Source: Ruminococcaceae bacterium BL-6 (GTDB lineage Bacteria > Bacillota > Clostridia > Oscillospirales > Acutalibacteraceae). From it: 64,000 nucleotides of DNA. The stretch is taken from the NCBI GenBank assembly GCA_902810075.1, contig LR778135.1, positions 1,116,001 to 1,180,000 on the forward strand, given 5' to 3'. The notes beneath the pieces are model-generated. The model was not told where the DNA came from. It worked only from the letters and a program-made list of their open reading frames with translations, and did not search any database. A program made the position numbers and the translations under genes. Below are positions 30,957 through 44,635 of this stretch, in pieces (the stretch's first letter is position 1; every line of letters begins with the position of its first letter).

Positions 30957-33176
30957 TTGGAAAGATATTATGCCCATTCCCCCAACGGCGACGGCGAATG
31001 GGAGACGGTAGAACATCACTTAAAGCGAGTGGGCGAATTGTGTGCTGACTTTGCTCAGGAACTGCAGTGCGGCGGCTTTGGCCGGACAGCCGGTCTGCTG
31101 CACGATGCGGGAAAGTACAGCCGGTTGTTTCAAGAGGTGCTGCACCACCAACAGATACATGTAGATCACGCAGTAGCGGGCGGCGTTTTGGCTTCTGCTT
31201 TTGGGGGAAGATCAGCGCATACCCTGGGGGTGATGATCAGGGCGCATCACAGCTTTTTACAGGAAAATATAAAGCCTGTGCTGGTACAGGCTCTAAAAGG
31301 AACGGAACGAAACGTCCCGCCGGACAATGATACTCTTTCCGTCTGCGGAAAAGATGAATTCACTAAGTTGATTGAGATCATTCGGCAGGAAACCGGATTA
31401 GATCTCTATCACGATTCTCTTCAAAGTCTGCCTGGTTTAGAAAACAGCGCTGATCAGCAGCTTGCACAGATGATGCAGACCAGGATGCTGTATTCCTGTT
31501 TGGTGGATGCGGACTACTCGGCGACGGAAGAATATTATGATGCAAGCTATCTGCAGAAATCGTCGGGTCAGCCATTGCAGCCCGAAGTTTTGCTGGAACG
31601 CCTTCAAAAGCATCGTGATGAGATACGCGCGCATTCAATGTCGGACAAAACGCTGAATGTCATGAGGGATCATCTGTATGATAACTGCATAGAAGCCGCA
31701 GATCGGAATCCCGGCCTTTTTACTTTGACGGCGCCTACAGGTATGGGAAAAACGCTCGATCTGCTCGCATTTGCATTGGCACATGCAGAAAAATGGGGAC
31801 AAAAGCGCATTTTTGTCGTACTGCCATATTTGTCCATTATCGGGCAGAATGCAAAAGAATACCGGGACATTGTTCCCGGAATGCTGGAAAGTCACAGCCA
31901 GGTGAAGGCAACGGATGAAACTCGTCAGCTTTCCGAGCGGTGGGCCGCCCCAATGATCGTTACTACGACAGTCGGGTTCCTTGAAGGGCTTTTTGCGTGC
32001 AGAGCGCCGGATTGCCGCCGCCTGCATCAGATCGCAGACAGTGTGATCGTTTTGGATGAAGCGCAAAGTCTGCCGCCGAAGCTGCTCGATGCGACTCTGC
32101 ATACGCTGCAGGAATTGTGTGATCGCTATCGATGTACGGTAGTACTGTCCACCGCGACACAGCCCGCTTTTCAGTACCGTCGAAATATGCAGTGGCAACC
32201 ACGGGAAATCGTTAAAAATCCACAGGCACTTTTCACGTCTGCGCGCCGGGTAGAAATGGAATGGCGGGTAGAAAAGGCGGTGCCGCTTGAACAGATCGCA
32301 GACGAAATGGCGGAGCAGCCGAGCGTTTGCGCAATCCTGAATCTGCGCCGTCACGCACGCAGACTGTATACCTTGCTGAAACGGCGCTGCAGTGAAAATG
32401 AGCTGTTTTTTCTTTCCAGCGATTTATGCCCGGCACACCGCGAAAAAATGCTGGAAGAAGTACGCGTCCGCCTGAAGCAGGGGCTTCCCTGCAGACTTGT
32501 CGCGACCCAGTGCATCGAGGCTGGGGTGGATATCGATTTTGTCAATCTGTACCGTGCGCTGGCTCCTCTTGAGTCTGTGATTCAGGCGGCAGGCCGCTGC
32601 AACAGAAACGGCGGCTCCGGAAGCCTTGGCAGGGTAACCGTTTTTGTACCGGATGAGAAGGGGAATCTTTACCCGGATGCATGGTATGAAAGCGCGGCGA
32701 ACAAACTGCGTGTCATGCTCGAAAATCATGATGTAGACATTTGCAGTCTGGTGGATATCGAGGAATATTACCGGCGTCTGTATTCCGATGCACCGGAAGA
32801 TTCGAAAGAACTGCGCGATGCCGTCAAGCAGCTTGACTACAAGGGAGCCGCCAAGGCTTATAAAATCATCCCGGCAGGTGGATTCACTGTAATTGTTTCT
32901 TACAATGAAAGCAAACCACTCTTTGATGGGGTTAAGAAAGAAGCGCTTGCCTATGGACTTACGCCTGCCATCCTTGCAAAGGCACGCCCTATTTCCGTCA
33001 GTACTTTCGATAAAAACAATGTGAAGAAATATTGTGAGCCGCTGCCTCGGTTTGACTATCGTGGCCGTCGGCTTGAGGAAAGCAGCGATTGCTTTTTGCT
33101 CGATCAGCCCAAATGCTACGACGATAAAACCGGGCTGTATTTCTCGGACGACGATTCTTTTCAAGCCTGTTATTAG
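30957..33176 (+). CDS. cas3: CRISPR-associated helicase/nuclease Cas3 (type I-C)
   Basis: 739 residues. The HD nuclease comes first: EHHLKRVGELC, LLHDAGKYSRLF and a HHSF motif near residue 100. The SF2 helicase follows: Walker A in TAPTGMGKTLDLL, DEAQ box in VIVLDEAQSLPPK, the motif III segment LSTATQPAF and QAAGRCNRNG near residue 545. It is recruited by Cascade to cut and degrade target DNA. The TTG start at 30957 has CGGGTGA upstream and matches the family start (YYAHSP). Its TAG stop (33174-33176) lies inside the end of an inserted repeat element that separates it from cas5c by 233 nt. Confidence 0.96.
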   Translation: MERYYAHSPNGDGEWETVEHHLKRVGELCADFAQELQCGGFGRTAGLLHDAGKYSRLFQEVLHHQQIHVDHAVAGGVLASAFGGRSAHTLGVMIRAHHSFLQENIKPVLVQALKGTERNVPPDNDTLSVCGKDEFTKLIEIIRQETGLDLYHDSLQSLPGLENSADQQLAQMMQTRMLYSCLVDADYSATEEYYDASYLQKSSGQPLQPEVLLERLQKHRDEIRAHSMSDKTLNVMRDHLYDNCIEAADRNPGLFTLTAPTGMGKTLDLLAFALAHAEKWGQKRIFVVLPYLSIIGQNAKEYRDIVPGMLESHSQVKATDETRQLSERWAAPMIVTTTVGFLEGLFACRAPDCRRLHQIADSVIVLDEAQSLPPKLLDATLHTLQELCDRYRCTVVLSTATQPAFQYRRNMQWQPREIVKNPQALFTSARRVEMEWRVEKAVPLEQIADEMAEQPSVCAILNLRRHARRLYTLLKRRCSENELFFLSSDLCPAHREKMLEEVRVRLKQGLPCRLVATQCIEAGVDIDFVNLYRALAPLESVIQAAGRCNRNGGSGSLGRVTVFVPDEKGNLYPDAWYESAANKLRVMLENHDVDICSLVDIEEYYRRLYSDAPEDSKELRDAVKQLDYKGAAKAYKIIPAGGFTVIVSYNESKPLFDGVKKEALAYGLTPAILAKARPISVSTFDKNNVKKYCEPLPRFDYRGRRLEESSDCFLLDQPKCYDDKTGLYFSDDDSFQACY

Positions 33177-33362
33177 GCCTCGTTTGAAGATCAAGGAACT
33201 AGGCCTTGTTTGTAAAATCCAAAGTCTTGTCTGTTTCGGCTAAAATTGCGCCTGCCTGCGTCAAAAATACTCGGAATCCGGAAAGGATTCCTGCGCTTTT
33301 TTCCTTACCATCCACAATTTTATCTCGAAAATCCGTCGTTTTTTATTTTCCAAACAAGGCCT
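33175..33362 (-). mobile_element. MITE-like repeat, copy B, between cas3 and cas5c
   Basis: The inner element at 33201-33362 has ends AGGCCTTGTTTG and CAAACAAGGCCT. Read on the minus strand its interior matches copy A (AATAAAAAACGACGGATTTT, GAGATAAAATTGTG, CGCAATTTTAGCCGAAACAG). A further end fragment (33175-33200, AGGCCTCGTTTGAAGATCAA) abuts it, as if one copy had been extended or had inserted into another. The first base pair set provides the AG of the cas3 TAG stop. Confidence 0.8.
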
Positions 33363-33409
33363 AGTTATCATCTATGAAAAGGTAAGCTGAATTTTAAAGG
33401 AGGAATATC

Positions 33410-34090
33410 ATGGATGACTCAAAGAATCAGGTGATTGAGGTCTGGGGCGATTTTGCTTGCTACTCGAGGCCGGAAAGCAAAGTGGAACGCCTTACATACC
33501 CGGTGCCGCCGCCCTCTGCTGTGCGCGGAGTACTCAGCGCCATTTATTCGAAGCCCCCGGAATTTTACTGGCAGGTCAGAAAAATTGAAGTGCTGAATCC
33601 TATCAATTATGTAAATTTCCGACGCAACGAAGTAAAGTGCAAAATGGGCGCAAAGCCGTTTCTTGTGGAGGACGAGCGCACACAGCGCCAAACGGTAGCG
33701 CTGAAAGACGTTCATTACCGCATCACCGCTCAAATGGTCCCGCGTCCAAGCTTCACCGGCGGCCGGCAGCGGATAATGGTTCAGTTCGAACGGCGCGTGA
33801 AACGCGGCCAGTGCTTTTTTCAGCCTTCCCTCGGGCTGCGGGAATTTCCGGCTTACTTCAGCTGGGGCAGCAGCGGAAAACCGCCGGTAAAATCTTTAAA
33901 CCTCGATTTGGGTTATATGCTTTACGACGTGTTTGACCTGCATGATTTTGAAGTGAGAAAGAAATGTAAACCGAGCGTTTCCCTGTTTCATGCGCAGGTG
34001 AACGGCGGGGTAATGGAAATTCCACCCTATGACGATGCGTGGGTGCTGAAGCCGGAAGGGGGAAGCCAGATTGCTGACGGAGCTCTATGA
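33410..34090 (+). CDS. cas5c: Cas5c (Cas5d) crRNA-processing Cascade subunit
   Basis: 226 residues. In type I-C systems Cas5 replaces Cas6: it cuts the pre-crRNA at the repeat stem and stays on the 5' handle. The opening IEVWGDFACYSRPESKVERL followed by TYPVPPPSAVRGVLSAIY is typical of Cas5. LREFPAYFSWG and the glycine-rich SWGSSGKPP near residue 150 fit the family. Active-site residues cannot be assigned by eye. AAAGGAGG lies just before the ATG. It overlaps cas8c by 20 nt. Confidence 0.94.
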   Translation: MDDSKNQVIEVWGDFACYSRPESKVERLTYPVPPPSAVRGVLSAIYSKPPEFYWQVRKIEVLNPINYVNFRRNEVKCKMGAKPFLVEDERTQRQTVALKDVHYRITAQMVPRPSFTGGRQRIMVQFERRVKRGQCFFQPSLGLREFPAYFSWGSSGKPPVKSLNLDLGYMLYDVFDLHDFEVRKKCKPSVSLFHAQVNGGVMEIPPYDDAWVLKPEGGSQIADGAL

Positions 34091-35861
34091 ATATGCACAG
34101 AAACAGGGATTGACGGCCAGGGCCGGTTTTAAACCCAAGAGAATCAAGGGGTACCTCTCCTTTTCCGCTAATGGGAAATTCCTTGGGATCGATCCGCCGC
34201 TGGAAGAAACGACTTTGGCTCCCGATATCGGTGCGGCGGCGAACGGCACCACAAAGTGCAATATCCTTGTGGAAAAGGCGAACCTGGTTCTGCAGATGGA
34301 CGACAAGCCCAATATAAAAGTAAAACATGAGTTTTTCAAGCAGGGGCTGCGCAGCGGGGCCGAAGCGGAGCCGCTTTTCGCCGTATGTCTTCAGGCATTG
34401 GAAAATCCCGCAGCAGTGGAAGAAATGATTGCCGCACTGTCTGAAAAGAAGATTAAGGCCGGCGATCCGATCGGTTTGGAAGTCGATGGTCAGAAACTGG
34501 AAAAAAGCACAAAATATTTCGACTGGTGGGAAACATATCGCCGTGGAATCGGAGACAAGGAAAAAGCAGCCGCTCAGCGCTGCCTGATTACCGGGCGGAT
34601 GACAGCGCCTATGCGCACCGTACCGAAAGTCGGCGGGCTTATGGCGGTAGGCGGCCATACTGCAGGAGACGCACTGCTCTGTTTTGACAAAGACGCTTTT
34701 GCGTCGTATGGATTCGACCATTCTGAAAACGCTGTCGTCTCTGAAAGCGCAATGACAGGTGTAAACGCGGCTTTACGTAACCTGATTGACGGCGCTCCAA
34801 TTTTAGCCGGGGCAAAAATGCTGCATTGGTACAAGGAGCCGGTCAGGGAAGAGGAAGACATTTTAGCGTCGTTTTTCGGCAGGCGCAGGATTGAAGAAAG
34901 TGACGACGATGACAGCTACGCTCAGAGAATGGACAAAGCCCTTGCCGCTGCAAACCAACTGATCACAAGCGCAAAAGAAGGAAGGATGCCGGCAAAACTG
35001 CAGAACCGGTATTATATCATGCCGCTTTCCGGCGCGAACGGCCGCATGATGGTACGCGGCTGGGACGAAGGCAGTTATGAAGATCTGTATGAAAATATCA
35101 AGGCCTGGTATGATGATCTGCGTATTATCATGTATGGCGGGAAAGGCTTTTGCAAGCCGGCCAAACTTTCCAAGCTGGAATACAGACTGCTGAAACCCAT
35201 GAACGGGCAGAGAAATATCAACGACCGTATGTCGGAGGAACTGGCGGGAATCCAGACAAGACTGCTGTACAGCGTATTGCATGGCCGCCTGACACCGGAT
35301 GAAGTGGGGAAAAAGGCACTCCAGTATATCCGTTCTAATATGCTGGCTGCCGGCAGTGGCGACCAGAAGCAGGAACGCCACCCGGATCTGTTTGCCTGTG
35401 AATTGCTGAAAGTGTGGATCATAAGAATTCAGCGCAAAGAAGGAGGAGAAATCCATATGAAAGAATTTTTGAACCTTGACTACCCAAGCGCTGCTTACCA
35501 GTGCGGCAGGCTGATGGCCGTGTATGCCGAAATCCAGAAAAAGGCTTTGGGCAACGTCAATGCCGGTGTGATCGAACGCTATTACGCCGGGGCAAGTACG
35601 GCGCCCGCGATGGTGTTGGGCAGGCTTTCGAACCTTTCGCAGTATCATCTCGGCAAGATAAACGATCCGGGAATCCGAATTTATTATCAGCGCTTTCTCG
35701 ATGAAATCTGCAGCAAACTGACGCTGCCTCTGCCCACGGCGCTGACGCTGCAGCAGCAGGGCGAATTCGCGGTAGGGTATCATCAGCAGCATGCGGATAT
35801 GTATAAAAGCAGAACGGATTTGCAGGCAGATCCCGATGAAAACAACAATACGGAGGAATAA
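34071..35861 (+). CDS. cas8c: Cas8c (Csd1) large Cascade subunit
   Basis: 596 residues, the normal size for Csd1. It recognises the PAM and stabilises the R-loop. The start [14 protein letters not shown] is characteristic (Csd1 proteins begin with LYEY), followed by [14 protein letters not shown] and [20 protein letters not shown]. It overlaps the cas5c end and is followed by cas7c after 17 nt. The last 134 codons also form a separately translated Cas11c. Confidence 0.94.
35457..35861 (+). CDS. cas11c: Cas11c small subunit, internal translation product of cas8c
   Basis: An in-frame ATG at 35457 inside cas8c is preceded by AAAGAAGGAGGAGAAATCCAT, a near-perfect RBS in the middle of a coding sequence. 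Initiation there gives a 134-residue, mainly helical protein ([20 protein letters not shown]..., ending [10 protein letters not shown]). Internal translation of Cas11 from the 3' end of cas8 is established for type I-C and related systems; two Cas11 copies line the Cascade belly. The strong RBS here is direct sequence support. Confidence 0.85.
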
Positions 35862-35878
35862 GAAAGGGAGTCTTCAGA

Positions 35879-36883
35879 ATGGCTATCAAAAATCGTTATG
35901 AATTCCTGTTCTATGTGGAGTGCGTCGGCGGAAACCCGAACGGCGACCCGGATATGGGCAATGCCCCGCGTATGGATCCGCAGGATATGCACGGCTACAT
36001 TACCGATGTCGCCATCAAGCGCCGTATCCGCAACTATGTCCAGAACGCTTATGAGGGTCAACAGGGGATGAATATCTTTGTCCAAAACGCGACGAATTTG
36101 AACCGGCATATTGCGGAGGCGCGCGAGGAAGCGGGACTTGATTTCGGCGCAAAAACGAAAGCCGACATCTACAAAGCAAGGCGGCAGGCTTGTGCAAAGT
36201 TCTTCGATGTGCGCACCTTTGGCGCCGTGATGTCTACCGGGCCGAATGCGGGGCAGGTGCGCGGGCCGGTTCAGCTTACGTTTGCCCGTTCGCTTGATCC
36301 GATCCTGCCGCTGGATATTTCCATTACCCGCATGGCGACTGCCGAGGAGGTAAAAGGTGCAAAATCTTCCGCAGATTATCTCGCTGCGGAGAATCAAACG
36401 CCGGAAGACAAGCTGCGCACCATGGGACGCAAACAGTTTATCCCATACGGCCTGTACGAAGAGCGCGGCTTCATCAGTGCAAATCTTGCGCGTGAAACGG
36501 GATTTTCAGACGATGATCTGCATACCCTGTTTGAATCCATACTGAATATGTATGAGCATGACCGCTCTGCCAGCAAGGGCCAGATGTCGGTTATCAGCCC
36601 GCTTGTGATTTTCCGCCATGTCGGCACTGATACGGACGAAGAACAGCGTGCCCGTCAGGCGGCGCTGGGTTGTGCGCCTGCGCATGAACTTTTTGACTTG
36701 GTCAGCGTGAAGCGTAAAAAGGAAGTGGAAGTACCGCGCAGCTGGAGGGATTATCATTCTGCAGTTGCAATTGAAAAATGTCCGTTCGGCGTCGATATTG
36801 GCTTTTTGTGCTCGCCTGACGCGGAGATCAGCTGGAATGCCGTTCCCGAGCAGGCATGCTTTTTTACTGATGGAGACAGATGA
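35879..36883 (+). CDS. cas7c: Cas7c (Csd2) Cascade backbone subunit
   Basis: 334 residues, a little longer than many Csd2 proteins. It polymerises along the crRNA spacer. The opening [20 protein letters not shown] and [20 protein letters not shown] are diagnostic, with KRRIRNYV and [21 protein letters not shown] after. AAAGGGAG precedes the ATG. Its last 14 nt overlap the cas4 start. Confidence 0.95.
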
Positions 36884-37532
36884 TCTGCTGCCGCTTTCCT
36901 ACCTTTCACAGTATGGCTACTGCCCTCGCCGGGCTGGGCTTCTTCTGCTTGACCAGGTTTGGGCGGAAAACGCCGATACTGCAAAAGGCAGGGCGGAACA
37001 TGAGCGGGTACATACACAGCGGATCGAGAAGCGCGGGGATCTTGTGAAACTTTATGAATATCCCGTGTTCTCCCAGCGGCTCGGTTTAAGCGGCTTCTGC
37101 GATTGTATCGAAGCGCGCAAGTCAAAAGACGGTGTGCTTCTTTCTCCGGGCCTGGAAGGGAAATGGAACCTATATCCGATTGAATATAAGCATGGGGTCG
37201 TCCGTAATGAGAGGGAATATGAACTTCAGCTGTGCGCGCAGGCAATGTGTCTGGAAGAACAGTATCATGCCTCGATTCCGGAGGGCAGCCTCTTTTATTT
37301 GGATGCACACCGCAGGCTGGAAGTACCGATTGACCGTGCTTTGCGCAGGGAAACAGAGAATACGGCTGCAGAATTAATCAGGATGCTTCAAAACAGGAAA
37401 GTCCCCGAACCGGGCCTTTCTGCAAAGTGCAAAAAATGTTCCATTCAGGAAATCTGTATACCTAAGGCTCCCCGTTCGGCGTCATCGTATTGCCGCAGCC
37501 TTGAAAAAGAGCTTGCAGGGGAGGAATCATAG
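36870..37532 (+). CDS. cas4: Cas4 adaptation exonuclease
   Basis: 220 residues. Cas4 trims prespacers and selects PAM-bearing ends during spacer acquisition. The four cluster cysteines are visible: YCPRRAGLL (Cys18) and [10 protein letters not shown] near the C-terminus. RecB-like motifs include GFCDCIE and YPIEYKHG. The ATG at 36870 overlaps the cas7c end; upstream in-frame codons lie inside cas7c and give no family-like sequence. The TAG stop overlaps the GTG start of cas1 by one base. Confidence 0.94.
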
Positions 37533-38560
37533 TGAGAAAGCTCGGCATGACACTTTTCATCCTGACACAGGATTCCTATCTGCATTGCCAGAATGAGGCA
37601 ATCGAAATTCTCATTGGCGGCGAAGAGAAAGGGCGTATTCCGGTTCATAATGTAGATTCCATTATATGCTTTGGAAATACGACTGTTTCGACACCATTTT
37701 TGGCTTTCTGTGCAAAAAACGGAGTGACATTGAGCTTCCTTTCAGAAAGGGGACAGTTTTACGGCAGGCTTCAGGGGCCGCAGAATGGCAATATTCTGCT
37801 TCGCCAGCAGCAGTTTTCTTATCTTTATGATACATTCTTTGCTTCGAACCTCGTGCGAAATATCTTATACGGTAAAATAGGAAACAGCAAACTCCTTTTG
37901 CAGCATTATGCAAGAGAACAGACAGAAGCAGATGCCAAGCAGCATTTGCAGGCAGCGGCTGAAAAATTATCAGAGGCGGCTAAAAATCTGCATGACTGCA
38001 TGACAGTGGACGAGATGCGTGGCAGGGAAGGTGCAGCGGCGGCAATCTATTTTTCAGTATTTGATGATTTGCTGAAAACGGACGATCCTCTCATGCACTT
38101 TGGGAGCCGCAGCCGAAGGCCGCCAGCCAATCGAAGCAATGCACTTTTATCATTTCTCTATACGCTGCTGAAAAATGATGTTCAGTCGGCACTGGAAAGT
38201 ATCGGCCTTGATCCTGCGGCCGGATATCTTCATACCCTGCGCCCCGGCCGTCCGGCCCTGGCACTGGATATGATGGAAGAATTGCGCTCTCCACTGTGTG
38301 ACCGCCTGGCTTTGACACTGATCAACCGCAAACAGATACAAAGCTCTGACTTTGAGACGGATACTCCCGCTTTTTACCTGACAGACAAAGCTCGCCGCAC
38401 GGTGCTGAACGCATGGGGCAGCAGAAAAAATCAAATGATCATGCATCCTTTTTTAAAAGAAAAAATGGAGATAGGGTTGATCCCTTTTGCGCAGGCTCAG
38501 TTGCTGGCACGTGTAATCCGCGGAGATTTAGATGAATATCCGCCGTTTGTCTGGAGGTAG
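37532..38560 (+). CDS. cas1: Cas1 integrase
   Basis: 342 residues. With Cas2 it integrates prespacers at the leader end of the array. Catalytic metal-binding residues are recognisable: Glu in MRGREGAAAAIYF (near residue 165), His in YLHTLRPGRPALALDMMEEL (near 233) and Asp in the same segment (near 245). The N-terminal beta-domain has IPVHNVDSIICFGN. It starts with GTG at the last base of the cas4 stop, showing tight coupling. Confidence 0.97.
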   Translation: MRKLGMTLFILTQDSYLHCQNEAIEILIGGEEKGRIPVHNVDSIICFGNTTVSTPFLAFCAKNGVTLSFLSERGQFYGRLQGPQNGNILLRQQQFSYLYDTFFASNLVRNILYGKIGNSKLLLQHYAREQTEADAKQHLQAAAEKLSEAAKNLHDCMTVDEMRGREGAAAAIYFSVFDDLLKTDDPLMHFGSRSRRPPANRSNALLSFLYTLLKNDVQSALESIGLDPAAGYLHTLRPGRPALALDMMEELRSPLCDRLALTLINRKQIQSSDFETDTPAFYLTDKARRTVLNAWGSRKNQMIMHPFLKEKMEIGLIPFAQAQLLARVIRGDLDEYPPFVWR

Positions 38561-38565
38561 CGAAG

Positions 38566-38856
38566 ATGCTTCTTGTAGTTTCATATGATGTGAATACAGT
38601 AGCGCCTGAGGGTTCAAAACGCTTGAGAAAAGTTGCACGTTTATGCGAGAAGTACGGAGTCCGTGTACAGAATTCGGTCTTTGAGCTCGATATTGATCCG
38701 GCGCAGGAAACGATCTTGCGTTGCGGCTTGGAAAGAATAATTGACCCCGAAAAAGATTCTGTACGTTTCTATCGATTAGGGAAAAGCTGGAAAAATAAAG
38801 TTGATTCGATTGGCAGAAAGCAACTCATAACATTTGGTGACGATCTTATTCTATAA
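38566..38856 (+). CDS. cas2: Cas2
   Basis: 96 residues, ferredoxin-like fold. It bridges two Cas1 dimers in the integration complex. LLVVSYDVNTVAPEGSKRLR and the region with VQNSVFELDIDP match the family; the Asp in SYDV is the conserved acidic residue. It begins 5 nt after cas1 ends and is the last gene before the leader. Confidence 0.96.
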   Translation: MLLVVSYDVNTVAPEGSKRLRKVARLCEKYGVRVQNSVFELDIDPAQETILRCGLERIIDPEKDSVRFYRLGKSWKNKVDSIGRKQLITFGDDLIL

Positions 38857-39040
38857 TTTTTCGCGATCCTCAATCATACAGGAATTCATGCGAGATTCGC
38901 GCAGCTTTTAAATGCTGATTTTTATAATGGATCAGGTTTAATGGTTGAAATCAGCAAGATATCAACATGAATTTGATGGTACATCATCAGCCCTTGGCAG
39001 AAAGGCACATTTAGATTGCTGATTTTTGTGCAAATCTGCT
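38857..39040 (+). promoter_or_regulatory. CRISPR leader
   Basis: An AT-rich 184-bp non-coding stretch between cas2 and the first repeat, in the position expected for the leader that directs new spacer insertion and drives array transcription. It holds several AATCAGCA/TGCTGATT-type repeats (GCTGATTTTTATAA, AATCAGCAAG, GCTGATTTTTGTGC), possible protein-binding sites. No consensus promoter stands out. Confidence 0.8.
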
Positions 39041-42000
39041 GTTGCCCTCTACGCGAGGGCAGGAATTGAAACCTTGTAAGCACGGAGCCAACCCCGCCCC
39101 ACGACGGTTGCCCTCTACGCGAGGGCAGGAATTGAAACTTCCGAAACAACGCTTGTGCTATCCGGGGCCTGATGTTGCCCTCTACGCGAGGGCAGGAATT
39201 GAAACCGGTCGCGCAGCCACAACGCCAATTTGTACACGGTTGCCCTCTACGCGAGGGCAGGAATTGAAACAGATACTGGAAATTCGCCGTATCGACCGCG
39301 TCGGCGGTTGCCCTCTACGCGAGGGCAGGAATTGAAACTTTAAGCGTGTTGTAGATTGCCAACCCTTCCGAAGGTTGCCCTCTACGCGAGGGCAGGAATT
39401 GAAACAAGACCGCGCTCCGAGAGTTAGAGCGGTATCGGGTTGCCCTCTACGCGAGGGCAGGAATTGAAACATCCTCGCCGAGTGGATCGCGAAACAAGCG
39501 CAGAGTTGCCCTCTACGCGAGGGCAGGAATTGAAACTTGCCTGAAAAACTGATTGTCGGCGTGATTACGGTTGCCCTCTACGCGAGGGCAGGAATTGAAA
39601 CATTTTTTCTCGGATGCTTTCTTTTTCTTTTATGGTTGCCCTCTACGCGAGGGCAGGAATTGAAACAGCGGTGAGGGCCTTGCAGAGGACATCGACGAAG
39701 TTGCCCTCTACGCGAGGGCAGGAATTGAAACAAGCCTGTGGATAATGTTTTCCGGTCGGAGCAGCGGTTGCCCTCTACGCGAGGGCAGGAATTGAAACAC
39801 CGCCGACCGATGCAAAAAATCCACTGTTTTCAGGTTGCCCTCTACGCGAGGGCAGGAATTGAAACAGTACATGGGGCAATTTACCTACTGCTTTTTTTAG
39901 TTGCCCTCTACGCGAGGGCAGGAATTGAAACCCCGGCCGCCAAACCCATAGTGAAAGGGATTGCTGTGTTGCCCTCTACGCGAGGGCAGGAATTGAAACT
40001 TCATCCAGCGCCCTGCCATTCCCGTACAGCTTGATGTTGCCCTCTACGCGAGGGCAGGAATTGAAACAAGCCTGTGGATAATGTTTTCCGGTCGGAGCAG
40101 CGCGTTGCCCTCTACGCGAGGGCAGGAATTGAAACCACTCATGACGGAAAATTCTTTATCGGAAGGCGCTGTTGCCCTCTACGCGAGGGCAGGAATTGAA
40201 ACGAGATCAAGATCAAAATCCATACCGCTGATACAAGTTGCCCTCTACGCGAGGGCAGGAATTGAAACAGCCATCCGGAGCTGTGGGAAAAGGCAAATCC
40301 TGTTGCCCTCTACGCGAGGGCAGGAATTGAAACAAGTCTGTGGACGATGTTGTCCGGCCGGAGCAGCGGTTGCCCTCTACGCGAGGGCAGGAATTGAAAC
40401 TGATCAACCTCGACAATAACCCGATTTTGACCGGGTTGCCCTCTACGCGAGGGCAGGAATTGAAACTAGTCAGCCCCTTTTGCCGCAAAAGGATTTTCGG
40501 TTGCCCTCTACGCGAGGGCAGGAATTGAAACATAGATGCTGGTATAATTAATCATTGGTCCAGAGGTTGCCCTCTACGCGAGGGCAGGAATTGAAACATG
40601 CAAGTCTGTGGACGATGTTGTCCGGCCGGAGCAGCGGTTGCCCTCTACGCGAGGGCAGGAATTGAAACATGCAGATAACGAAAACTTTCCTCCGGCAGTG
40701 ATTCAAGTTGCCCTCTACGCGAGGGCAGGAATTGAAACTGTGATCGCGTTTGAAACTGGAATTATCGTCATGTTGCCCTCTACGCGAGGGCAGGAATTGA
40801 AACCCCGACACCGACGAAATTCGATGCGACGTGCGGGGGTTGCCCTCTACGCGAGGGCAGGAATTGAAACAACTTTGCGGGTGACCTCAAACGGCGCGAT
40901 GATGTTGCCCTCTACGCGAGGGCAGGAATTGAAACGACGTCGGCAGGGGTCGGTGCCGTGGGGCTGTTGTTGCCCTCTACGCGAGGGCAGGAATTGAAAC
41001 TTCCGCCTATTATTCCTTGAATCATTCCAGTGAGTTGCCCTCTACGCGAGGGCAGGAATTGAAACATGCCGAGGGGCTTTCCGCTGCCGTCGCCGTCCAC
41101 GTTGCCCTCTACGCGAGGGCAGGAATTGAAACCGGAATTCATATCGGTGAAATCCCGGAACTCGCTGTTGCCCTCTACGCGAGGGCAGGAATTGAAACAT
41201 TACCACCGGCGACGGCAACAAGCGGGTACGACTGTTGCCCTCTACGCGAGGGCAGGAATTGAAACAGAACAGCCAACGAGACGCTCGGGCAGCAGGTGAC
41301 GTTGCCCTCTACGCGAGGGCAGGAATTGAAACAACGAGGGCGGCGGTGCGCTCACTGCGGCCCAGCTGTTGCCCTCTACGCGAGGGCAGGAATTGAAACA
41401 ACACCATCGCGAACGCCGTCAGCAAGTGTGAAGTTGCCCTCTACGCGAGGGCAGGAATTGAAACGTATCGTTCTGCTGGATCAGTTCCTGCGCATCCTGT
41501 TGCCCTCTACGCGAGGGCAGGAATTGAAACAAATCACCTTTTTCATTGCGGCCTGTGTATCTCTGTTGCCCTCTACGCGAGGGCAGGAATTGAAACGAAA
41601 AAGTATTATTCGATGGAAACCAGTGGCCGCAGTTGCCCTCTACGCGAGGGCAGGAATTGAAACACGGCGAAACCGCAGACCCATGAGCCTACTGCACAGT
41701 TGCCCTCTACGCGAGGGCAGGAATTGAAACACAATCGGCTGGAGTGGAGCGCTTGAAAAAATGCGGTTGCCCTCTACGCGAGGGCAGGAATTGAAACAGG
41801 GACAAGAAGATCACGGCTGATGAATTTTCCGGTTGCCCTCTACGCGAGGGCAGGAATTGAAACACGGCGGCACTGTACCAGAGCTATTCCAAACTGGTTG
41901 CCCTCTACGCGAGGGCAGGAATTGAAACTTCGACGATCTGACCGCGAATCACCCGCTTCTGGGTTGCCCTCTACGCGAGGGCAGGAATTGAAACACGGAG

Positions 42001-44635
42001 GATCGGCTGATCGTTACGCTGGCGCAGGTTGCCCTCTACGCGAGGGCAGGAATTGAAACTACGGCTAATTCTGGGCTTGTGATCGTGTGGGCGGGGGTTG
42101 CCCTCTACGCGAGGGCAGGAATTGAAACTTTTATTTTGATAAAGCTCAAATCCCCGTGCTCCGTTGCCCTCTACGCGAGGGCAGGAATTGAAACCCGGAT
42201 ATTTCCGTCCGGCCCAGGGCGAGGCTTATGTTGCCCTCTACGCGAGGGCAGGAATTGAAACTTTGCGATCTAACTGTAGTCCGGGCTTATACCGTTGCCC
42301 TCTACGCGAGGGCAGGAATTGAAACAACCTCAAATCCGTAAGAATTCCGATCAAGCTCAAGTTGCCCTCTACGCGAGGGCAGGAATTGAAACAAAAGGCA
42401 CCCCGGCGAGTAGCCCGATTGCGCCGGTTGCCCTCTACGCGAGGGCAGGAATTGAAACGGCTCCCATCGCGGAGCCGACTCTTTTTTGCTAAGTTGCCCT
42501 CTACGCGAGGGCAGGAATTGAAACATTCATCTTTGGCAGACAAATGAAGGATTTCGGGTTGCCCTCTACGCGAGGGCAGGAATTGAAACACGACAGTCGG
42601 ATCGGATGTCATCAGCAAATCCGGTTGCCCTCTACGCGAGGGCAGGAATTGAAACATCAGGTGACATCAAAATTGCAGGAAATCCGATTAGTTGCCCTCT
42701 ACGCGAGGGCAGGAATTGAAACAATGAGTTTTTTGAGCAGTACAAGGTTGTTGTTGAGTTGCCCTCTACGCGAGGGCAGGAATTGAAACACGGATGGGGC
42801 AAAGGCGAACATATCCACTAGAGTTGCCCTCTACGCGAGGGCAGGAATTGAAACATGTATTTTCTCTCCTTTCACAGATCCCCAGCCGCGTTGCCCTCTA
42901 CGCGAGGGCAGGAATTGAAACTTCGACGATCTGACCGCGAATCACCCGCTTCTGGGTTGCCCTCTACGCGAGGGCAGGAATTGAAACACGGATGTGCCCG
43001 AGCCAACGCTGATCGCGGCGGTTGCCCTCTACGCGAGGGCAGGAATTGAAACACAGTGATCTTCGTGTCACCGGATTCTGTGCCCTCAGGTTGCCCTCTA
43101 CGCGAGGGCAGGAATTGAAACACCTCCTGCCCTTCCGGGCTGTCTCGATTGATAGTTGCCCTCTACGCGAGGGCAGGAATTGAAACAATTCTCGGTGCCG
43201 CATCGTAAAAGACGGTATCGTTGCCCTCTACGCGAGGGCAGGAATTGAAACACTATCGGAGCCGGGGCGTGGTGCTTGTGGGACGGTTGCCCTCTACGCG
43301 AGGGCAGGAATTGAAACAGATTTACAGCACTTCCGCTCAACAAACGAGGCGTTGCCCTCTACGCGAGGGCAGGAATTGAAACGTCATGCCATGCGGTGAA
43401 AATAACGTTGGTGCTGACGTTGCCCTCTACGCGAGGGCAGGAATTGAAACATCGGGGAGATCAAGGACGTGTACGGGCAGAATGTTGCCCTCTACGCGAG
43501 GGCAGGAATTGAAACCCCCACATATTGCCACTTCTGAATTTGTTCTGCAGTTGCCCTCTACGCGAGGGCAGGAATTGAAACTCCACACGGCCCAAAAGAT
43601 AGGCCGGAACTGGGTGTTGCCCTCTACGCGAGGGCAGGAATTGAAACAGAACGCGCAGAGAATCGCGCTGATCGCGCGGAGGTTGCCCTCTACGCGAGGG
43701 CAGGAATTGAAACAGATACTGGAAATTCGCCGTGTCCACAGCATCGGCGGTTGCCCTCTACGCGAGGGCAGGAATTGAAACAACACAATCGTGGACGGAT
43801 TCGCCTGCTCCGCCGTTGCCCTCTACGCGAGGGCAGGAATTGAAACACCTGCAAGCTGCTTGACGGCCGCGTCAATACGGTTGCCCTCTACGCGAGGGCA
43901 GGAATTGAAACTGGAAAGAGCGGACGCTTCTTTGATTCTATTCGTGGTTGCCCTCTACGCGAGGGCAGGAATTGAAACAGAGATGGCGCGCTTGCCCTTG
44001 CCGAGCCTGCAGTTGCCCTCTACGCGAGGGCAGGAATTGAAACGAAACGATGGGGCCTGACGATGGACGCGCAGATGTTGCCCTCTACGCGAGGGCAGGA
44101 ATTGAAACTTCAGGCTGTTCACGCCGCGTCCGACCTTGACTTGTTGCCCTCTACGCGAGGGCAGGAATTGAAACATCAAATGCGACCTCGGGAACGCCGC
44201 GACATTCTGTTGCCCTCTACGCGAGGGCAGGAATTGAAACTCATCGACGAACGCAATCGGCAGTAGGGCGTTCATGTTGCCCTCTACGCGAGGGCAGGAA
44301 TTGAAACCATCTTCCCCCTCGCTTGAAAATCTGGAAAAATGTTGCCCTCTACGCGAGGGCAGGAATTGAAACTGGCGTCTCCCTGCCGATCCTTTCTGGA
44401 GATTACAGTTGCCCTCTACGCGAGGGCAGGAATTGAAACCGGTCGTAGTCATCCGCTTTCCAGCCTTTCCGCGGTTGCCCTCTACGCGAGGGCAGGAATT
44501 GAAACCCGTATGGACGGATACGCCGTTGCCCGCCAAAAGTTGCCCTCTACGCGAGGGCAGGAATTGAAACACGAACTATCTGGAGAACGGGCATAAGATT
44601 CGGGTTGCCCTCTACGCGAGGGCAGGAATTGAAAC
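39041..44635 (+). CRISPR. Type I-C CRISPR array, 85 repeats and 84 spacers
   Basis: The 32-bp repeat begins GTTGCCCTCT, contains the dyad GCCCTC-TACGC-GAGGGC, and ends GGAATTGAAAC. I counted 85 copies from 39041 to 44604; all look identical, including the last. Spacers are 32-39 nt. The ATTGAAAC end and the cas2-side leader set transcription on the + strand, with newest spacers at the left. Identical or related spacers recur (spacers 4/71, 11/16/20/24, 44/59, numbered from the leader). The many open frames across the array are repeat artefacts. Confidence 0.99.

Follow-up and report, generated by a model that had tools for sequence, protein, structure and literature searches.

Probable recapture of one phage tail-gene site by a type I-C CRISPR system in Ruminococcaceae bacterium BL-6

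Background

How can one array of clustered regularly interspaced short palindromic repeats (CRISPR) come to hold, far apart in its order, two spacers that are almost the same? The question is raised by spacers 4 and 71 of an array (array A; array B is the second array of this genome) in a stretch of 64,000 nucleotides of Ruminococcaceae bacterium BL-6 (contig LR778135.1, positions 1,116,001 to 1,180,000 of the forward strand), hereafter the window, to which coordinates refer unless another sequence is named. A preliminary description of the window had held that both spacers derive from homologous genes of diverged viruses, captured at exactly the same position long apart in the history of the array, that their shared reading frame is the viral coding frame, and that acquisition prefers certain sites; as checks it proposed searches with the spacers and their peptide and a look at the protospacer-adjacent motif (PAM). 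Here, I argue that the pair represents, with a probability of roughly 0.88, two separate PAM-anchored captures of one Gp37-like protospacer, taken from variants of a siphovirus resembling the phage record G476, one in an older and one in a recent wave.

39041..44635, + strand: CRISPR array A, 85 identical 32-nucleotide repeats and 84 spacers
39271..39306, + strand: spacer 4, the recent variant, in antisense orientation to a Gp37-like tail gene (ADAVDTANFQY)
43714..43749, + strand: spacer 71, older variant, site shared with spacer 4

Two spacers and one tail gene

The pair was described exactly, from its coordinates to the length of 36 nucleotides, the differences confined to positions 21, 24, 27 and 30, and the peptide RYWKFAVSTASA encoded by both in the + frame; the numbering holds too, 84 spacers being counted between 85 repeats. 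In an all-against-all comparison of spacers the pair scores 52, the maxima of 20 shuffled sets being 20-27. As for the four synonymous third-position changes, they are indeed silent in the + frame, but this property is not unique to it: the minus-strand frame is likewise identical in the two spacers (ADAVDTANFQY), and since the changes are silent on both strands, the pair alone cannot reveal the coding strand.

Array A contains a second same-site set, in which spacers 11 and 16 share 35 bases, spacers 20 and 24 share 35, and five differences separate the two types; this second site accounts for four captures in two variant forms (11/16 and 20/24).

39732..39766, + strand: spacer 11, second reused gp37 site (LLRPENIIHRL), 1 mismatch to G476
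40068..40103, + strand: spacer 16, spacer 11 plus one 3' base
40334..40368, + strand: spacer 20, second gp37 site, LLRPDNIVHRL variant, 6 mismatches to G476
40598..40636, + strand: spacer 24, spacer-20 sequence with ATGC, the opening four bases of spacer 25, added in front
40669..40706, + strand: spacer 25, its first four bases recurring in spacer 24

Searches with the spacers and their peptide in the claimed + frame, and in both frames together, gave nothing in viral or genome contigs; the homologous site was reached through a degenerate pattern for LRP[ED]NI[IV]HRL, taken from the minus strand of spacers 11 and 20, which matched a sole record, IMG/VR record IMGVR_UViG_2886878113_000005 of 35,484 bases (locus L037, here G476). 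Spacers 11, 16 and 20 (1, 2 and 6 mismatches) align at G476:34176 on the minus strand with gcgGTC in front, and spacers 4 and 71 (6 and 8 mismatches) align to G476:34870-34905, also minus, with tcgGTC in front; the PAM of the homologous 4/71 site is, on inspection, GTC. Rather than unrelated or non-coding sequence, both reused sites lie inside one gene, G476:34040-35071 (343 amino acids, 1032 bp), on the strand opposite to the spacers, which matches PF14594 Sipho_Gp37 with 262 bits against a cut-off of 26.2. The G476 site encodes ADAVDTANFAY, and the opposite frame reads R*AKFAVSTASA, with a stop; the proposal that the shared + frame is the viral coding frame is not borne out, and, exact carriers aside, the coding strand of the target is, judged from the sequence, the one opposite to the spacers (ADAVDTANFxY). 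As an alternative source of the pair, two gp37 copies within a single phage were weighed and rejected, for the site is found once in G476 within 9 mismatches. In both 4/71 and 11/20 the PAM-side boundary is shared exactly (register 0), and spacer 24 is shifted by the four spacer-25 bases.

A database protein identical to the G476 Gp37 (P0001) is labelled Caprobacter fermentans, which I take to be Caproicibacter fermentans (Acutalibacteraceae), and G476 would be a prophage of that species. Among 120 homologues compared, of 295 found, the 12-residue segment matches G476 at 7-12 of its 12 residues in every case, the variable residue being A in 55, E in 27, Q in 16, R in 10, K in 10, S in 1 and V in 1; ADAVDTANFQYL occurs exactly in 1 of the 120, LLRPENIIHRL in 16 and LLRPDNIVHRL in 5. 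Because their peptides occur in natural homologues, the spacers carry natural variants of the gp37 gene.

Order of captures along the array

Spacer 1 would be the newest, because the presumed leader lies on the cas2 side. This polarity is supported by spacer 24, since it begins with the starting bases of spacer 25, ATGC, where G476, upstream of the spacer-24 core target, reads GGTC; the start of spacer 24 was likely left by a repeat duplication that overran by four bases, and addition of spacer 24 on the low-coordinate side of spacer 25 would yield precisely such a carry-over.

Two phage lineages are recorded in array A, namely G, the G476-like lineage, and R, the lineage to which the resident prophage belongs (host chromosome, about 817-861 kb; PHROG matches for 9 of the 10 proteins scanned). 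At seven mismatches or fewer, 41 of the 84 spacers match G476 (25) or the own prophage (16), spacer 24 being counted on its 35-nucleotide core (9 mismatches over the full 39 nucleotides); when matches at 8-9 mismatches are added, that is spacers 21, 50, 55, 71 and 80, of which 55 and 80 are without GTY in front, 46 of 84 are mapped, 27 to G and 19 to R. Reversed and twice-shuffled DNA of the prophage region and of G476 gave no spacer match within 9 mismatches. Mismatches between spacer and target fall at third codon positions in 61 of 104 cases (p 1e-7), in a test that excluded spacers 14, 46 and 69 (no called gene), included both 44 and 59 as well as 11, 16 and 20, and relied on automatic gene picks, with a plus-strand gene assigned afterwards for spacers 31, 37 and 44.

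The two lineages are not mixed at random: spacers 1-44 comprise 22 G and 2 R, and spacers 45-84 comprise 5 G and 17 R (Fisher p 2.5e-6, with a cut chosen after the order was seen), while a runs test on the G/R order gives p 1.8e-4 for the 46 spacers and 1.1e-3 for the strict 41. Spacer 71 stands within a small older G group (67, 70, 71 and 72, with 69 being R), spacer 4 within the recent G run, and a mostly R run lies between the two groups. That one position was captured twice, far apart in array order, is upheld, the G476 site being the same and the array eras different.

The motif in front of the targets is equally regular: GTY precedes 27 of the 37 distinct targets of array A, with G at -3 in 34 of the 37, and precedes 13 of the 14 targets among spacers with at most one mismatch.

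A probable course of events

If the pair arose by two captures, those of the R lineage would fall between the older and the recent G476-like waves, and the four differences would reflect phage evolution between them. In each wave a fragment would be cut beside the GTY motif, and both captures would start at the same base because of this cut; the boundary would be set by Cas4-Cas1-Cas2, as is known from other type I-C systems. Older, imperfect spacers would prime later captures: on the newer variant, the match of spacer 71 would still extend over its 20 bases next to the PAM, and positions 24 and 30 are presumably among the bases flipped out by type I effectors. Along the phage, the 22 distinct G476 sites switch strand, from 9 plus and 1 minus on the left to 3 plus and 9 minus on the right (change-point p 0.007, the switch having been sought after the data were seen), a pattern that, noticed post hoc, fits primed adaptation.

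Several points weigh against the two-capture reading. The exact sources of spacers 4 and 71 were absent from the viral contigs and genome contigs searched; neither spacer has a match outside the array in its own genome, nor, in the searched sets of 198 and 398 genomes, in any of the remaining 197 and 397. No phage record covered 80% of spacer 4, and the whole array was without match among phage records. G476 differs from both spacers at all three bases of one codon, and the single carrier of ADAVDTANFQYL, P0112, is a remote relative (56% identity). The era cut and the strand switch share the post hoc character mentioned above, and the spacer ages presume a leader on the cas side in both arrays. 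Of the claimed origin in homologous genes of diverged viruses, what stands is one gene with a homologous site, whereas the exact source phages were not found.

Among candidates set aside, phage-record matches to spacer 4 (20 of 31 listed) cover at most 64% of the spacer at E about 5 and were taken as noise; a plasmid match to the whole array, 3% of the query at 70% identity, was ignored; and the other Gp37 loci L043-L045, matched only at 8-9 mismatches, were left out.

Copying, chance, selection and site preference

Copying within the array would make spacer 4 a recombination copy of spacer 71 that afterwards acquired four point mutations. In-array copying does occur in this genome, where a block of fourteen array B spacers, 146-159, recurs as 173-186 and looks like a block copy; yet the neighbours of 4 and 71 are not duplicated, no mutation is seen across the 85 repeats (2720 nucleotides), and the four changes share a single codon-position class (chance probability 0.0084 for a named class) and are silent in the true gene. 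Given moreover that the analogous variants, 11/16 and 20/24, are both present in natural phage proteins, such a copy is very improbable.

Separate capture does not by itself imply that the site was preferred. Were GTY sites sampled evenly, with 979, 1958 or 2450 of them available (2450 assumed for a larger phage genome), 24 non-identical G spacers would show one or more coincidences with p 0.11-0.24 and two or more with p 0.005-0.03; because one coincidence is this probable, the pair 4/71 alone is uninformative on site preference. That a heavily sampled lineage was sampled evenly at its PAM sites and the shared site is chance remains a somewhat doubtful explanation, to which a figure of p 0.73-0.81 lends support if all 81 non-identical spacers derived from one lineage. 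Against it count the two diverged reused sites and their location in one 1032-bp gene, which takes 4 of the 22 distinct G sites (p 0.003 over the whole record; 0.04 over the right half, where the matches lie). Identical captures (11/16, 20/24 and 44/59) add weight unless they are array copies; for spacer 16, separate acquisition is favoured because it has one extra 3' base relative to spacer 11.

41929..41962, + strand: spacer 44, identical to spacer 59, G476 target with 2 mismatches
42922..42955, + strand: spacer 59, identical to spacer 44

The recurrence might also reflect selection that retains spacers against conserved tail-gene sites, and not a preference at capture. All 120 homologues compared conserve the 12-residue stretch, as selection would have it, but a second identical spacer should add little protection, and 11, 16, 20 and 24 have nevertheless all been retained; I regard this explanation as unlikely. 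Taken together, the evidence moderately supports site preference: the earlier claim drew on one coincidence, which is insufficient, and it is the two sites that suggest it.

The type I-C system of the window and its motif

Array A adjoins a cas operon.

30957..38856, + strand: type I-C cas operon, Pfam and NCBIfam profile matches
30957-33176, + strand: cas3, core and HD models above curated cut-offs
33410-34090, + strand: cas5c, NCBIfam above curated cut-off
34071-35861, + strand: cas8c/csd1, NCBIfam above curated cut-off
35879-36883, + strand: cas7/csd2, NCBIfam above curated cut-off
36765-37532, + strand: cas4, NCBIfam above curated cut-off
37532-38560, + strand: cas1c, NCBIfam above curated cut-off
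38566-38856, + strand: cas2, NCBIfam above curated cut-off
38857..39040, + strand: presumed leader by its position, from cas2 to the first repeat

The system is of type I-C by signature genes, Cas1 type and gene order: the cas8c/csd1 signature is present with cas5c and cas7/csd2 (TIGR01863 242.7 bits, cut-off 218.65; TIGR01876 111.8 bits, cut-off 85; TIGR02589 289, cut-off 182.25), Cas1 is of the I-C type (TIGR03640 442.1 bits, cut-off 385), and the order cas3-5-8c-7-4-1-2 adjoins the array. The usual I-C PAM, TTC, which is typical and not defining, is not the motif of this system. The table of Vink et al. 2021 (PMC8482600) has as its type I-C entries CTN, CCN, CTT, TTC, TTN and TTT; from these six, none with G at -3, the GTY of the window differs, whereas the TTY of the second system of this genome (see below) agrees with the listed TTC, TTT and TTN. 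The PAM assignments in PMC4246573 give GTY to type I-D and GAA (TTC on the other strand) to I-C. Within the literature set searched, to which the statement is confined, no paper was found that joins a GTC PAM to type I-C.

A second type I-C system in the genome

A second set of cas3, 5c, 8c, 7, 4, 1c and 2 lies at 3161239-3169486 of the host chromosome, cas3 being recognised by core and HD models, and is followed by array B, with 195 repeats at 3169664-3182774 (loci L050 and L051 span 3161239-3182774); 193 of its spacers were used, one 100-nucleotide stretch between repeats being dropped. Within 8 mismatches, 51 of the 193 match the resident prophage, 7 match G476 and none matches two other prophage-like regions; in reversed controls, G476 gave one match at 9, and the prophage regions apart from that near 2.4 Mb gave none within 9. 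The G spacers (7) lie closer to the cas genes than do the R spacers (51), with p 9e-5, or 1.7e-4 when the duplicated block is left out, and TTT or TTC precedes 33 of the 48 distinct targets, a TTY motif.

Three diverged pairs of array B (8/59, 32/112 and 75/163) are in exact register, so diverged same-site capture recurs in an array with another PAM; array B has many identical pairs as well. Its pair 37/137, with a shift of 3, was attributed to chance, since the two spacers map to different places. No spacer is common to arrays A and B. Both Cas8c proteins pass the Cas8c model, yet BLASTP aligns them without significance (E 0.20); the Cas1 proteins are 45% identical. Quite probably the two I-C systems, through their different PAMs (GTY and TTY), draw on separate sets of sites and keep parallel records of the waves of two phage lineages.

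Prophages and self-targeting

Beyond G476, seven loci were reached from the resident prophage's terminase, in none of whose DNA examined the 4/71 site was seen; only L023 (IMGVR_UViG_3300038317_000032, a metagenome contig), with a terminase 99% identical to that of the resident prophage, has array targets (spacers 81 and 60), that of spacer 81 being exact. Among the genome contigs searched this terminase had no relative, and the resident prophage's tail protein pointed to a single locus, which lacks the site. Stretches at 130-165 kb gave no spacer match within 9 mismatches. A further Gp37 gene at 3071151-3072146 of the host chromosome (PF14594, 278 bits) probably belongs to a third prophage; in the region near 3.07 Mb, no spacer of array A finds a match within 9 mismatches and none of array B within 8. 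Spacer 13 matches the host chromosome at 2398136 (L022:8136) with 2 mismatches, in a 712-residue glycine-rich reading frame, and the region around it resembles a second prophage by its reading frames.

43318..43350, + strand: spacer 65, matching the resident prophage without mismatch, preceded there by GTC
44373..44407, + strand: spacer 81, matching the resident prophage without mismatch, preceded there by GTT

Spacers 65 and 81 target 849272 and 836007 of the host chromosome, and array B adds spacers 36, 38 and 77 as exact self-targets with the consensus motif; because such exact prophage targets carry the motif, interference must be off, blocked or evaded. An anti-CRISPR is one candidate for what prevents self-damage. 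A comparable setting is described for Xanthomonas albilineans in PMC10810201, with two type I systems in one genome and many spacers against resident prophages; there the systems are I-C and I-F1 and anti-CRISPR proteins were shown, whereas here both are I-C.

Conclusions

Pairs of this kind are already known, since Rao et al. 2016 (PMC5071653) report for the I-C array of Legionella pneumophila Toronto-2005 older and newer spacer pairs at overlapping sites of LME-1, propose naturally primed acquisition and describe, in a plasmid experiment, two independent captures at one identical protospacer. Like those, the present spacers are type I-C spacers of different age against the same or an overlapping site of a recurrent element; in Legionella the newer spacer matches perfectly and the older is weakened in PAM or seed, whereas here four silent changes lie away from the seed and exact sources were not found. 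Less expected than same-site pairs are the GTY and TTY PAMs of two I-C systems in one genome. If true, the GTY motif extends the known range of type I-C PAMs, and one cell with two I-C systems that differ in PAM offers a natural test of what sets PAM choice.

For the host, the pair 4/71 records encounters with two variants of one phage lineage, separated by another phage, and capture of the identical site each time. With 46 of its 84 spacers mapped, array A becomes an ordered record of phage turnover, and the five diverged same-site cases in the two arrays offer a measure of site bias in capture.

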